Shown here: piece by piece, positions 44,028-48,548 of the stretch | Layout of the letters: every line of letters begins with the position of its first letter | Position numbering within the stretch: the stretch's first letter is position 1 | Assembly: GCF_029626225.1 (NCBI RefSeq) | Contig: NZ_JARUBP010000001.1 | Location: forward strand, 6,324,001 to 6,388,000 | Length of the DNA stretch: 64,000 bases | DNA from: Asanoa sp. WMMD1127 | GTDB lineage: Bacteria; Actinomycetota; Actinomycetes; Mycobacteriales; Micromonosporaceae | Direction: 5' to 3' | The notes under the pieces: generated by a model | What the model was told of the DNA's origin: nothing | What the model saw: only the letters and a program-made list of their open reading frames with translations | Database searches by the model: none | Translations under genes and position numbers: made by a program

Positions 44028-44126
44028 GACACCGCTGTGGTGGTCCCGGCCCCCGGTCGGGGCCACCACGGCACGTTATGACCACGGCCACGGTCGTGAG
44101 CCCTGAAGGCGAGATCCGCTCACCAC

Positions 44127-44132
44127 TACAAT
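44127..44132 (+). promoter_or_regulatory. -10 box upstream of the FIST gene
   Basis: TACAAT ends six bases before TTG 44139, the first possible start of the FIST gene. No clear -35 is seen. If transcription begins at 44139 the message is leaderless with a TTG start, or translation begins at GTG 44157 or 44163. Confidence 0.45.
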
Positions 44133-44138
44133 CGGTGG

Positions 44139-45347
44139 TTGTCTGACCACGCGCTCGTGGGGGTGAGCACCCTGACCAGCACCAAAGCCCGGCGCGGCGT
44201 CGGCACCGGCGAAGGTCCCGACGCCCGTCTGGCCACCGAGAAAGCCCTCGGCGAGGCATTACGGCCGCTCGAGGGGCAGCAACCCGATCTGATCCTGGTG
44301 TACGCGTCTGTCCGGTACGACCTGCCGACGGTGCTGAAGACCGTCAACGCGGCCGCCGGTTCGGCCGTCGTCGCCGGCGCCACCAGCTCCGGCCAGCTCC
44401 AGTCGGGCCGGCTCACGGAGCCCGGCGACGGCGTGGCCGTGCTGGCGCTCGCCGGTGGCGGCTACCGCTTCGGGCTCGGCCACGCCACGGGCCTGCAGGC
44501 CGACGCCACCAGCGCCGGCCGCGCGCTGGCCCGCGCGGCCCTCGACGCCGCCGGCCCGGTCCGCTCGCCGCACGAGGCGGTTCTGATCTTCTCCGACGGG
44601 CTGGCCGGCGACCAGCAGGAGCTGCTCAACGGCATCCACAAGGTGACCGGGTTCCAGATCCCGGTCATCGGCGGCGCGGCGGCCGACGACCGCCGGCTCG
44701 CGGAGACCTTCGTGTTCGCCGGCGACCGCGTGCTGCGCGACGCCGCCGTCGCCATCTGGATCGGCTCCGACCGGCCGCTGCGGGTGGTCGGCGGGCACGG
44801 CTGGCGGCCGACCAGCCTGCCGCTGATGCTCAGCGGCGTGGAGGGGCAGATCGTCAAGGAGCTCGGCGGCCGGCCGGCGCTCGAGGTGTTCTGGGAGAAC
44901 TTCCGCCCGCGCGGCGGCCCCGACACCACGCTCTACGAGCGGGCCGGCGGCTACCACTCCGAGCACGCGTTCGGGCTCATCCAGCCCGACGGCTCGCTGC
45001 TGATCCGGGGCGCGTTCATAGACGCCGACGGCAAGCTGCGCACGTTCTCGCCGATGCCGCCGTACTCGGCGGTCCAGGTGGTCTCGTGCGAGCCCGACGA
45101 CCTCCTCGAGGTCGGCGAGCAGGTGGTGGAGAGCGTCGTCGGCGACGAGGAGCCGGCCGTCGTGCTGGTCTTCGACTGCGTGGCCCGGCTCGACATCCTC
45201 GGCAAGCGCGGGCACGAGGAGGCCCGCCGGCTGCAGGAGGCGGCCGGCGGCGCGCCGACGTTCGGCTACTACACCTACGGCGAGTTCGCCCGCACCACCG
45301 GCGTCGCGGGCTACCACAACGCCACGATCGCCGCGATGGCGTTGTAG
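44139..45347 (+). CDS. FIST-domain signal sensor protein (FIST_N + FIST_C)
   Basis: About 402 residues with both FIST domains and nothing else. FIST_N (about 30-225) holds AVVAGATSSGQLQ and FQIPVIGGAAADD; FIST_C (about 235-385) holds VIAP-like ligand parts and ends GYYTYGEFARTTGVAGYHNA. FIST proteins are sensory modules; one branch (NosP) binds haem and nitric oxide. The next gene, four bases on, encodes a c-di-GMP enzyme, so this protein very likely feeds a signal to it. Start is TTG 44139, or GTG 44157 or 44163. No signal peptide: it is cytoplasmic. Confidence 0.85.
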   Translation: MSDHALVGVSTLTSTKARRGVGTGEGPDARLATEKALGEALRPLEGQQPDLILVYASVRYDLPTVLKTVNAAAGSAVVAGATSSGQLQSGRLTEPGDGVAVLALAGGGYRFGLGHATGLQADATSAGRALARAALDAAGPVRSPHEAVLIFSDGLAGDQQELLNGIHKVTGFQIPVIGGAAADDRRLAETFVFAGDRVLRDAAVAIWIGSDRPLRVVGGHGWRPTSLPLMLSGVEGQIVKELGGRPALEVFWENFRPRGGPDTTLYERAGGYHSEHAFGLIQPDGSLLIRGAFIDADGKLRTFSPMPPYSAVQVVSCEPDDLLEVGEQVVESVVGDEEPAVVLVFDCVARLDILGKRGHEEARRLQEAAGGAPTFGYYTYGEFARTTGVAGYHNATIAAMAL

Positions 45348-45351
45348 CCCG

Positions 45352-47679
45352 TTGGTCGCGTACGGGGACCCGCAGGCGCCCCGCTTCGAGTCCGAGGCGG
45401 AGTCGCTGCGGGCTGCCCTCTCCCGGGCGGAAGGGGCGGCCGCGGCCGCGTACCGCGACACGGCCCGCCTGATCCGGCTGCTGACGGTGATCGGCACGCC
45501 GTCGTCGCCCGGCCGGTTGATAGACCGCACGCTGACCGTGCTCTCCGAGGTGTTCGCGGCCGACGTCGTGTGCATCGCCGAGGCCGTCGACGACCGTTTG
45601 CTCGTCACCGCGTCCTGCGGGTTGCCCGAGGACGACCCGGCGTTCACCACCGGCTGGGCGCTCGGCCCGACGGCCCGCCGCGTCATCACGTCCGGTGGCG
45701 CCGCCGCGCGGCACGGCGTCGAGGCCGCCGACCTGCCGCCACCGCTGAGCGACGCGCACAACGCGTCCGCGGCCTGGATACCCCTGTCCGGTGTGGGCTC
45801 CGAGTTCGCCGGCGACCTGCTCGTCCTCTACCGCACCGGCGGCGACCTGTTCACGCCGGCCGACCTGCAGGTCCTGCTCTCGATGGCCTACCGGATGTAC
45901 TCGGCCGTCGAGGCCCGTGAACGCGGCGTCGCGATCGAGCGGCTCGCCCAGGCCGGCCCGGACCTGGCCCGCCACCTGGAGCTGGGCGCCCTGCTCGACG
46001 ACGCCGTGCTGCTGCTGCGCGAGCTGACCGGCACCGACGCGACCTGGATCCTGAGCGTGCGCGACGAGCTCGCCGAGGTGGCCGCCGCGGCCGAGACCGG
46101 CGCGGACACCGGCCGCCGGTGGCCGATGCCCGCCACCGAGCTGCCGGGCTGGCCACGGCTGGCGGCCGGCGAGGCTTACGTCGGGCCGGGCGCCAACAGC
46201 GAGGACCCGATGCTGCTGGTGCCGGTCATGCGGGACGACACGGTGATCGCCGTGCTGGCCGCCCGCGGGCAGCGGGCCCGGTCGTTCGGCAAGTCGTCGG
46301 TCGAGGTCGCGCAGGTGCTCGCCAGCTACCTGAGCGTCGCCATCAGCAACAGCGAGCTCTACCGCCGGCTCAAGGCCCGCGAGCAGGAGCTGCACCGGCG
46401 CGCGTCGCGTGACCCGCTGACCGGCCTGGCCAACCGGATGACGGCGGCGCAGCGGATCGACGAGACGCTGGCCGGCTCGCCGACCGGCGTGGCCGGCCTG
46501 CTCTTCTTCGACCTCGACAAGTTCAAGGCCGTCAACGACCGGCTCGGCCACGAGGCCGGCGACGAGCTCATCCAGCAGGTCGCGCAGCGGCTGCGCAAGG
46601 TCGTCCGGCCGGGTGACATGCTGGCCCGGTTCGGCGGCGACGAGTTCGTCCTGCTGATCAACGGCGCGTCGGACCTGACGGACCTGACCGACATGGGCCG
46701 CCGGATCCAGGTGGCGCTGGGCGACGCGTTCCCGCTGCGCGGCGAGCGGGTCGAGGTCACGGCGAGCATCGGCGCGGTGCTCGGCCGGCGTGGCACGGCG
46801 TCGGCCAGCGCGATGCTGCGCGACGCCGACGCCGCCATGTACGCGGCCAAGGCCCGCGGCAGCGGCCGGCTCGAGGTCTTCGACGACGAGGCGTCACACC
46901 GCTCGATCGACCGGCTCGACCTGCGTTCCGACCTGTCCGAGGCGCTCGAGCACGGCCAGCTCTCGGTGGTCTTCCAGCCGATGGTCGAGCTCAAGAGCAA
47001 CACGATCCGCTCGTTCGAGGCGCTGGCCCGGTGGCGGCACCCGGAGCGCGGCACCGTGCCGCCCGACGAGTTCATCCCGTTGGCCGAGGAGACCGGCGCG
47101 ATCGTCCCGATCGGCGCGTGGGTGCTCGACCAGTCCTGCCGGCAGCTCGCGGCGTGGCAGCGGGAGTTCCCCGAGGCGCACCTGACGATGAGCGTCAACA
47201 TCTCGGCCGTGCAGCTCGAGCGCGGCCACGGCGACCTGCTCGAGGTGATCCGGTCGACGGGCGTCGACCCGGCCGACATCTGGCTCGAGGTGACCGAGCA
47301 CATGGACACCGCCGAGGACATCTCGTCGCAGGTGGACGCGCTGCGCGACGCCGGCGTGCACTTCGCGCTCGACGACTTCGGGATGTCGTACTCCAGCCTC
47401 GCGTACCTGCAGCGGTTCCCGGTCGAAGGGTTGAAGATCGACCGGGCGTTCGTGGCCGCGATGAACGACGCCGCCGACAGCGGCCGCGGCATCGTCCGCG
47501 CCATCATGGCGGTGGCCGACTCGCTGTCGATGAAGGCGTTCGCCGAGGGCATCGAGGAGCCGGCCCAGCTCGACGCGCTGCTCGACCTGGGCTGCGGTTA
47601 CGGCCAGGGCCACCTGCTCTCACCGCCGCTGTCGGTCGAGCAGGCCACCGCCGCCCTGCGGGCCCAGCGCGACCGCTAG
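45352..47679 (+). CDS. GAF-GAF-GGDEF-EAL cyclic-di-GMP enzyme
   Basis: A 775-residue protein: short coiled coil (10-40), GAF (about 40-185), GAF (about 205-335), GGDEF (355-510), EAL (525-770). The cyclase motif is intact (RFGGDEF, Gly at about 428) and has an RxxD inhibitory site five residues before it (RPGD). The EAL motif (FEALARW, about 555), EVTEH, DDFG and KIDRAF are intact, so both synthesis and breakdown of c-di-GMP are possible. Start is TTG 45352, four bases after the FIST stop, with no ribosome site, implying coupling. Its TAG stop is inside the left end of the MITE-like element. Confidence 0.9.
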   Translation: MVAYGDPQAPRFESEAESLRAALSRAEGAAAAAYRDTARLIRLLTVIGTPSSPGRLIDRTLTVLSEVFAADVVCIAEAVDDRLLVTASCGLPEDDPAFTTGWALGPTARRVITSGGAAARHGVEAADLPPPLSDAHNASAAWIPLSGVGSEFAGDLLVLYRTGGDLFTPADLQVLLSMAYRMYSAVEARERGVAIERLAQAGPDLARHLELGALLDDAVLLLRELTGTDATWILSVRDELAEVAAAAETGADTGRRWPMPATELPGWPRLAAGEAYVGPGANSEDPMLLVPVMRDDTVIAVLAARGQRARSFGKSSVEVAQVLASYLSVAISNSELYRRLKAREQELHRRASRDPLTGLANRMTAAQRIDETLAGSPTGVAGLLFFDLDKFKAVNDRLGHEAGDELIQQVAQRLRKVVRPGDMLARFGGDEFVLLINGASDLTDLTDMGRRIQVALGDAFPLRGERVEVTASIGAVLGRRGTASASAMLRDADAAMYAAKARGSGRLEVFDDEASHRSIDRLDLRSDLSEALEHGQLSVVFQPMVELKSNTIRSFEALARWRHPERGTVPPDEFIPLAEETGAIVPIGAWVLDQSCRQLAAWQREFPEAHLTMSVNISAVQLERGHGDLLEVIRSTGVDPADIWLEVTEHMDTAEDISSQVDALRDAGVHFALDDFGMSYSSLAYLQRFPVEGLKIDRAFVAAMNDAADSGRGIVRAIMAVADSLSMKAFAEGIEEPAQLDALLDLGCGYGQGHLLSPPLSVEQATAALRAQRDR

Positions 47680-47845
47680 GGGGTGTCTCGTGGATCAGGG
47701 TGGTGCCCCGGCGAGGTCCAGGCGGCGTCCGGGCGTGCGCGGAGGTGGGTCGGATACCGGTGTTGTATCCGGCCCGGCTCCGCGTGCGGTCGGTCGTCGT
47801 CTGGGCCCGGCGGGGTGCCGGCATGATCCACGAGACACCCCCTAG
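47676..47845. mobile_element. MITE-like foldback element, 170 bp, with 22-bp terminal inverted repeats
   Basis: Ends 47676-47697 and 47824-47845 are perfect inverted repeats, each beginning CTAGGGGGTGTCTCGTG on its own strand. CTAG at both tips may be a target duplication. The interior is also partly palindromic, with GGATAC and GTATCC around the centre (about 47753-47770). No transposase is encoded. Ends with GGGTGTCTC resemble those of some IS5-group elements; that link is an inference. It lies exactly between two converging genes and supplies the stop codon of each. Confidence 0.75.
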
Positions 47846-48390
47846 ACCAGGGCCGAGCGGTCGATCGTGCCGTCGGCGGTGCGGGGGAAGCGGTCCAGGA
47901 CCGTGATCTCGCGCGGCACGCGCGGCGCGGCCACCCGGGCCGCCAGATAGTCGCGGAGCACCGTCGGGTCGGCCCGCCAGCCGGGCAGCAACGTCACGTA
48001 TCCGACCAGGACGGCGCCGGCCTCGTGCCGGCGGACCACCACGGCGCACTCGTCGACCTCGTCCGCCGCCGCCAACGCGGCCTCGGCCACTTCCGGGTCG
48101 GACCGGCCGCCGCGGATGCGGACGCTGGGCCGGCGGCGCTCCGGTGCGGGTCGGACGTGCGCCAACGGCACGCCCGCCGCGAGCGGCAGGGCCACGGACG
48201 GCGGAAGCCACAACGTGGTGTGCGGCGGCGGCGCCAGAACCCGCGTCGGGACCAGTCGCGGGTAGGTGGCGCGCAACAGGGCGCGGATCGCGCGCGGGTC
48301 GGCGTCGTCGGCCACGGGAATGTCCCGCTCCGCGGCCCATCGCCGGATGGCGGACAGCTCGTGCCCCCAGTCCCGCAGCAACGATCCCAT
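47842..48390 (-). CDS. Truncated adenylate-forming enzyme, C-terminal subdomain only
   Basis: A 182-residue protein. Its second half (about 95-182) matches the small C-terminal subdomain of acyl/aminoacyl-adenylating enzymes (PEVAEAALAAADEVDECAVV, ending FPRTADGTIDRSALV). The large ATP-binding domain is missing. The catalytic Lys of the A10 motif (PxxxxGKxDR) is replaced by Thr. The first half (LLRDWGHELSAIRRWAAERD) has no recognised domain. It cannot be an adenylating enzyme by itself and may be a remnant or an accessory. ATG 48390 is preferred; the frame extends to 48444. Its stop lies in the MITE. Confidence 0.65.
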   Translation of the reverse strand: MGSLLRDWGHELSAIRRWAAERDIPVADDADPRAIRALLRATYPRLVPTRVLAPPPHTTLWLPPSVALPLAAGVPLAHVRPAPERRRPSVRIRGGRSDPEVAEAALAAADEVDECAVVVRRHEAGAVLVGYVTLLPGWRADPTVLRDYLAARVAAPRVPREITVLDRFPRTADGTIDRSALV

Positions 48391-48548
48391 TCCCCGTGAC
48401 TCCCCTGTTGTGGCAAACGCCGGTAACTTTAGGTCACAGAGCAACTACGTTCAGACATCGCGCGGTTCGGCGTGTCCCGGTTAGTTCGACGGCTGTCACT
48501 GCCGACGCGGTAGGATCCGGCCGCAGGAGACTCACCGAGGAGGTCCGG

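Follow-up and report, generated by a model that had tools for sequence, protein, structure and literature searches.

The stretch analysed here, called the window, comprises 64,000 nucleotides of Asanoa sp. WMMD1127 (contig NZ_JARUBP010000001.1, positions 6,324,001 to 6,388,000), an actinobacterium with a genome of 8.0 Mb. In it, a gene encoding a FIST protein is followed on the same strand, after a gap of 4 nt, by a gene encoding a GAF-GAF-GGDEF-EAL protein, a putative enzyme of cyclic di-GMP (c-di-GMP) turnover. It is reasonably probable that the two genes form a sensor-effector module, in which a detached FIST subunit acts on the N-terminal GAF-like module of its neighbour. The soluble FIST protein would be the sensory subunit and would bind this module, and a ligand or a modification at its conserved Cys/Glu/His site would shift the balance between making and degrading c-di-GMP. 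The domains and motifs, the operon-like spacing, the conserved adjacency, the joint presence of FIST and the N-terminal module and the swapping of outputs are all read from sequence, and from these patterns we infer the physical contact, the direction of its effect and the ligand.

The gene pair and its conservation

44139..45347, + strand: FIST protein (FIST_N and FIST_C, by Pfam; start codon uncertain)
45352..47679, + strand: GAF-GAF-GGDEF-EAL protein, 775 aa (Pfam, motifs)
45355..45966, + strand: divergent first GAF forming the N-terminal module, where FIST is proposed to bind (profile A4, predicted fold, linkage)
45982..46350, + strand: second GAF (GAF_3, E = 2.2e-12)
46402..46866, + strand: GGDEF domain, with the inhibitory site (I-site) RPGD at 46606-46617 and GGDEF at 46633-46647 (Pfam, motifs)
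46927..47628, + strand: EAL domain with loop 6 DFGMSYSS (Pfam, motifs, loop-6 comparison)

The FIST gene is a frame of 402 aa with clear Pfam matches to FIST_N (E = 3.6e-38; 131.8 bits against a cut-off of 23.2) and FIST_C (E = 3.7e-16; 59.9 bits against 28.5), and its predicted fold is of the FBXO22 FIST type, at 14% identity in the fold match. Its nearest named relatives, in Asanoa spp., are 85-86% identical. The start codon is uncertain: TTG at 44139 and the in-frame GTG codons at 44157 and 44163 are candidates, alignments with four Asanoa relatives begin at residues 1, 4, 7 and 7, and residues 1-8 of the structural model have a predicted confidence (pLDDT) below 50.

The partner begins with a TTG at 45352, where the relative L035 has an ATG, judging from its translation. 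Pfam places GAF_3 at residues 211-333, GGDEF at 351-505 (E = 7.2e-39) and EAL at 526-759 (E = 1.4e-66). The GGDEF signature (428-432) is preceded by the RxxD I-site RPGD (419-422), five residues ahead, as in diguanylate cyclases. The EAL domain carries EAL (556-558), NIS (616), DDFG (674), KID (695), AEG (731) and GQG (751), so that the EAL, N, E, DD, K, E and Q positions, which we take to be the catalytic residues, are all present, and both catalytic domains look intact by their motifs. The first-pass annotation, which had reported a FIST gene four bases before a GAF-GAF-GGDEF-EAL gene with all key motifs and an intact inhibitory site, is thus borne out by the frames, Pfam and motifs for the spacing, the second GAF, GGDEF, EAL and RPGD. 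Two elements call for qualification, the first GAF and loop 6 of the EAL domain. The first GAF falls below the Pfam cut-off (GAF_3, E = 0.0037, 18.1 bits against 27) and is recognized by its predicted fold: an AlphaFold model of it (pLDDT 85.6) resembles GAF structures of the PDB (3ci6, E = 9.1e-7).

The genome has two FIST genes and 30 places encoding GGDEF, and a GGDEF lies next to both FIST genes, which argues against chance pairing. The second FIST gene (G000:C1:5329164-5330300, covered by L025 and L049) encodes a protein 34% identical to the first and is followed after 1 nt by a gene for a GGDEF-only protein of about 489 aa. Its N-terminal module is that of a second group of FIST partners, here clade B, while the FIST of the window belongs to clade A.

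The FIST/c-di-GMP operon put forward at the outset is supported, and the adjacency in relatives that it calls for holds. Our genome set (the Asanoa genome plus 60 relatives) has 31 FIST places in 17 of 61 genomes, and we took 16-kb stretches around 27 of them (26 from relatives and one being the second Asanoa FIST); a GGDEF-type frame directly follows FIST in 25. A scan of genome contigs with a FIST alignment found 323 relatives, and among the best 80 of these the next gene encodes GGDEF in 60 loci (56 with EAL; L135 is truncated where its contig stops); in 13 others it encodes a histidine kinase. The FIST-GGDEF gap, measured to the first possible start, lies between -4 and +34 nt in 54 of the 60. 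In a class-wide sample FIST occurs in 101 of 394 genomes; among 20 stretches fetched from these 101, four (L169, L173, L176 and L177) have GGDEF after FIST. The conserved pairing spans Actinomycetota, Cyanobacteriota, Chloroflexota and Halomonadaceae. The coupling is wider than the sequence of one locus could tell, reaching several phyla and changed outputs.

A constant N-terminal module with exchangeable outputs

Clade-B partners share a homologous N-terminal module some 170 residues long. Its profile, built from GGDEF-type partners only, matched all 16 other clade-B partners, with E values from 1.6e-32 to 1.8e-60, and these include kinases of several types. In clade A the N-terminal module is kept in two FIST partners whose outputs are not GGDEF-EAL, a GAF-PAS protein from a metagenome-assembled genome of Chloroflexi (L113:1998-3425, E = 4.6e-41) and a GAF-HisKA-HATPase-receiver protein from one of Syntrophobacteraceae (L115:6184-8505, E = 4.7e-19).

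The linkage holds also when the search starts from the module. Profiles of the clade-A module (A4) and the clade-B module (A3) were run over the 61 genomes. A4 gave 13 strong loci (one split in two), and 13 of 13 adjoin a clade-A FIST; the next match (4.1e-11) also adjoins FIST, and matches away from FIST begin at 3e-10. A3 gave 15 loci at E <= 1e-36, with FIST beside 14. The distances between FIST proteins correlate with those between N-terminal modules at a Pearson r of 0.91 in clade A (GGDEF 0.85, EAL 0.84) and 0.65 in clade B (GGDEF 0.47, EAL 0.23). On a FIST tree of 94 rows the histidine-kinase label needs seven changes, at least four of them forced by starred branches. By virtue of this linkage, of the distance correlations and of the changes of label on the tree, what is conserved, judged at the sequence level, is the combination of FIST and the N-terminal module, with an output that can be exchanged. 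That this pair is kept while the output is swapped suggests that FIST acts on the N-terminal GAF.

Several observations weigh against this interpretation. One strong clade-B module (G033:C20:272415-272921) has no listed FIST beside it, nor has a weaker A3 match (G005:C90, 7.5e-16). The distance correlations have overlapping bootstrap ranges, and Spearman coefficients in clade A do not differ (0.62, 0.60 and 0.62 for N-terminal module, GGDEF and EAL). Since the neighbour counts come from the best 80 of 323 loci, the GGDEF share is biased to near relatives and is not that of all FIST proteins; in seven of the 80 (L103, L113, L129, L148, L155, L161 and L166) the output is cut or cannot be assigned. 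Two of the 27 stretches have another protein next to FIST (L056) or no GGDEF neighbour (L057), and in L178-L188 of the class-wide sample, which hold a third, more distant group that we call orphan FIST, phmmer found no GGDEF or EAL neighbour. The coupling is thus not a property of all FIST proteins.

A further point concerns loop 6, which makes EAL activity less sure than the other motifs suggest. In active EAL enzymes this loop reads DFG(T/A)GYSS, according to the available part of PMC2994820, and in the partner it reads DFGMSYSS. All 26 clade-A GGDEF-EAL partners among the best 80 loci have another residue in place of the second glycine; 29 of 30 clade-B ones keep it, the lone exception looking like a mis-hit of the search pattern. 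A looser motif that allows Ala at this glycine (PMC2994820, same part) fits seven of the 26 clade-A partners and does not fit the one studied here. The departure lowers the claim of predicted EAL activity, not of membership in the EAL domain family. Given this loop, the net activity may lean to c-di-GMP synthesis, or hydrolysis may be conditional.

The FIST site and alternative readings

45177..45179, + strand: Cys347 codon; aligns with FBXO22 C326 (alignments)
45282..45284, + strand: Glu382 codon (GE motif); aligns with FBXO22 E362 (alignments)
45315..45317, + strand: His393 codon, present in every FIST row compared (alignments)
44796..44804, + strand: H220-G221-W222 of clades A and B (row comparison)

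Residues were compared across 32 clade-A rows (this FIST included), 49 clade-B, seven NosP-like and six orphan rows. Cys347 occurs in 81/81 rows of clades A and B, 7/7 NosP and 5/6 orphan rows, and Glu382 and His393 in 81/81, 7/7 and 6/6; each is found in 22/22 rows of a smaller alignment (A5), which omits the orphan row without Cys347. The other positions vary between groups: H220 is present in 81/81 rows of clades A and B, 1/7 NosP and 0/6 orphan rows, G221 in 81/81, 0/7 and 6/6, and W222 in 78/81, 0/7 and 0/6, while R385 occurs in 0/7 NosP and 0/6 orphan rows. Within this comparison H220, W222 and R385 mark clades A and B.

Cys347 and Glu382 could be the ligand site of a sensor for carbonyls, electrophiles or another small metabolite, comparable to the aldehyde-reactive C326-E362 of FBXO22. 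We regard this as rather unlikely: taken by itself, the similarity in sequence to FBXO22 is weak (E = 0.012-0.021), the chemistry of FBXO22 is drug-driven, the available part of its structure paper describes no obvious ligand pocket (PMC11185555), the Cys is absent from one of the six orphan rows, and both residues could be structural. A still bolder proposal takes the FIST domain, whether in bacterial modules with c-di-GMP enzymes or kinases or in human FBXO22, to be one conserved thiol sensor of the Cys-Glu-(His) type that responds to carbonyls or other electrophiles; in the pair described here its signal would pass through an N-terminal GAF module dedicated to it, and the outputs would be interchangeable. 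This seems to us quite improbable. If the C326/E362 link holds, studies of the human ligase and studies of bacterial FIST sensors would benefit from one another.

The first-pass annotation had looked to the NosP branch, whose FIST proteins bind haem, sense nitric oxide (NO) and act on c-di-GMP enzymes or kinases in proteobacteria, and had suggested a gas or small-molecule sensor that might control development. On a NosP-like reading this FIST would bind haem, and NO would alter its contact with the enzyme. Haem/NO sensing is the worked-out case for FIST in the accessible portions of two papers, which report that NosP FIST domains bind haem and NO and that haem inhibits CdpA of Vibrio cholerae (PMC12570481, PMC8846402). 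Two further observations are in its favour: no H-NOX (HNOB) gene was found in the Asanoa genome, and a plasmid FIST gene stands before an HNOBA-type guanylate cyclase. The latter, in Aliiroseovarius crassostreae (L219:5004-6999), lies 7 nt before the class III cyclase and recalls a soluble guanylate cyclase whose HNOB sensor has been replaced in trans by FIST. However, the NosP model NF041558 gives this FIST 73.8 bits against a cut-off of 450, and the seven NosP rows (one of them over that cut-off) form one clade with 100/100 support, separate from this FIST on the 94-row tree, which carries a long-branch warning. W222 and the A384-R385 insertion are in none of the seven and H220 in one. NosP identity by sequence was rejected on the score and the separate clade. 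Both types even coexist in one genome, that of Billgrantia kenyensis (G449): a true NosP (L198, 550.8 bits) and L130, a clade-B FIST with a GGDEF-EAL partner. The suggested alignment with NosP did recover a conserved His, H393, the sole His in at least 80% of the seven NosP rows, but its presence in every FIST row compared deprives it of discriminating power. A haem/NO sensor is in our opinion a doubtful description of this protein.

About equally doubtful is a structural or scaffold subunit without ligand, for instance FIST clamping the GAF module. A conserved pair does not by itself call for a ligand, and the FIST domain of FBXO22 serves protein recognition (PMC11185555, in the part available); the retention of Cys, Glu and His across unrelated partners, however, fits a functional site better. 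Finally, simple inheritance of two neighbours with no functional tie, which could account for conservation within one genus by descent, is very improbable, given that the pair is conserved in several phyla while its outputs differ and that each of the two FIST clades keeps its own module. The sensor-effector module would be a compact, kinase-free two-protein system in an actinobacterium, and it offers defined targets for mutation: the N-terminal GAF module as candidate contact, and Cys347, Glu382 and His393 in FIST.

Flanking sequences and comparison with known systems

44121..44141, + strand: CACCACTACAATCGGTGGTTG block, promoter-like, with TACAAT at 44127-44132 (kept before FIST in six genomes of the genus, this one included)
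44036..44070, + strand: GC-rich hairpin between the M14 peptidase gene and FIST (-31.8 kcal/mol, z = -4.75)

The CACCACTACAATCGGTGGTTG block is kept ahead of FIST in the Asanoa genome and five others of the genus, and a single perfect match to its first 19 nt occurs in the Asanoa genome; a sigma-70 pattern scan did not flag it. The hairpin is possibly the end of the upstream M14 peptidase transcript; a terminator scan found no T-run terminator. As the block is conserved and a strong hairpin separates the M14 peptidase gene, the two genes look like one transcript starting at FIST.

Downstream lies an element resembling a miniature inverted-repeat transposable element (47676-47845, 170 bp), with 38-nt inverted ends (84%) and CTAG at both termini; some ten nearly complete copies of it occur in the genome. 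The TAG stop codon of the GGDEF-EAL gene, whose product is apparently one residue longer in four Asanoa relatives, comes from the CTAG of this element. The element is followed by a reverse-strand frame of 200 aa (47842-48444), the end of which resembles, by eye, the C-terminal part of an acyl-CoA ligase; L034 and L035 have a reverse-strand frame of about 213 aa at the matching place.

As far as the available parts of the cited papers go, precedents in print are NosP-kinase pairs and the FIST-bearing phosphodiesterase CdpA (PMC8846402). NosP-NahK-NarR of Legionella, like NosP-kinase pairs elsewhere, also has a solo FIST beside a signalling enzyme and a c-di-GMP output via a GGDEF-EAL protein (PMC8846402, PMC11237717, excerpts). 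There, however, the link runs through a histidine kinase and a response regulator, whereas in Asanoa FIST directly adjoins the GAF-GAF-GGDEF-EAL protein; the NosP rows, moreover, are a FIST clade apart. In V. cholerae CdpA, FIST-FIST_C is likewise linked to a c-di-GMP phosphodiesterase, one inhibited by haem (PMC8846402, same excerpt), but it lies inside the enzyme; the Asanoa FIST has a gene of its own, and the enzyme beside it carries GAF-GAF as its input. Human FBXO22 differs in being a ubiquitin-ligase substrate receptor with an F-box, related at the 14% identity given above. H-NOX/diguanylate cyclase pairs, in which a detached sensor acts on a c-di-GMP enzyme (PMC8846402, in part), share the arrangement proposed here, with a sensor of another family, HNOB, not found in the Asanoa genome, in the place taken by FIST.
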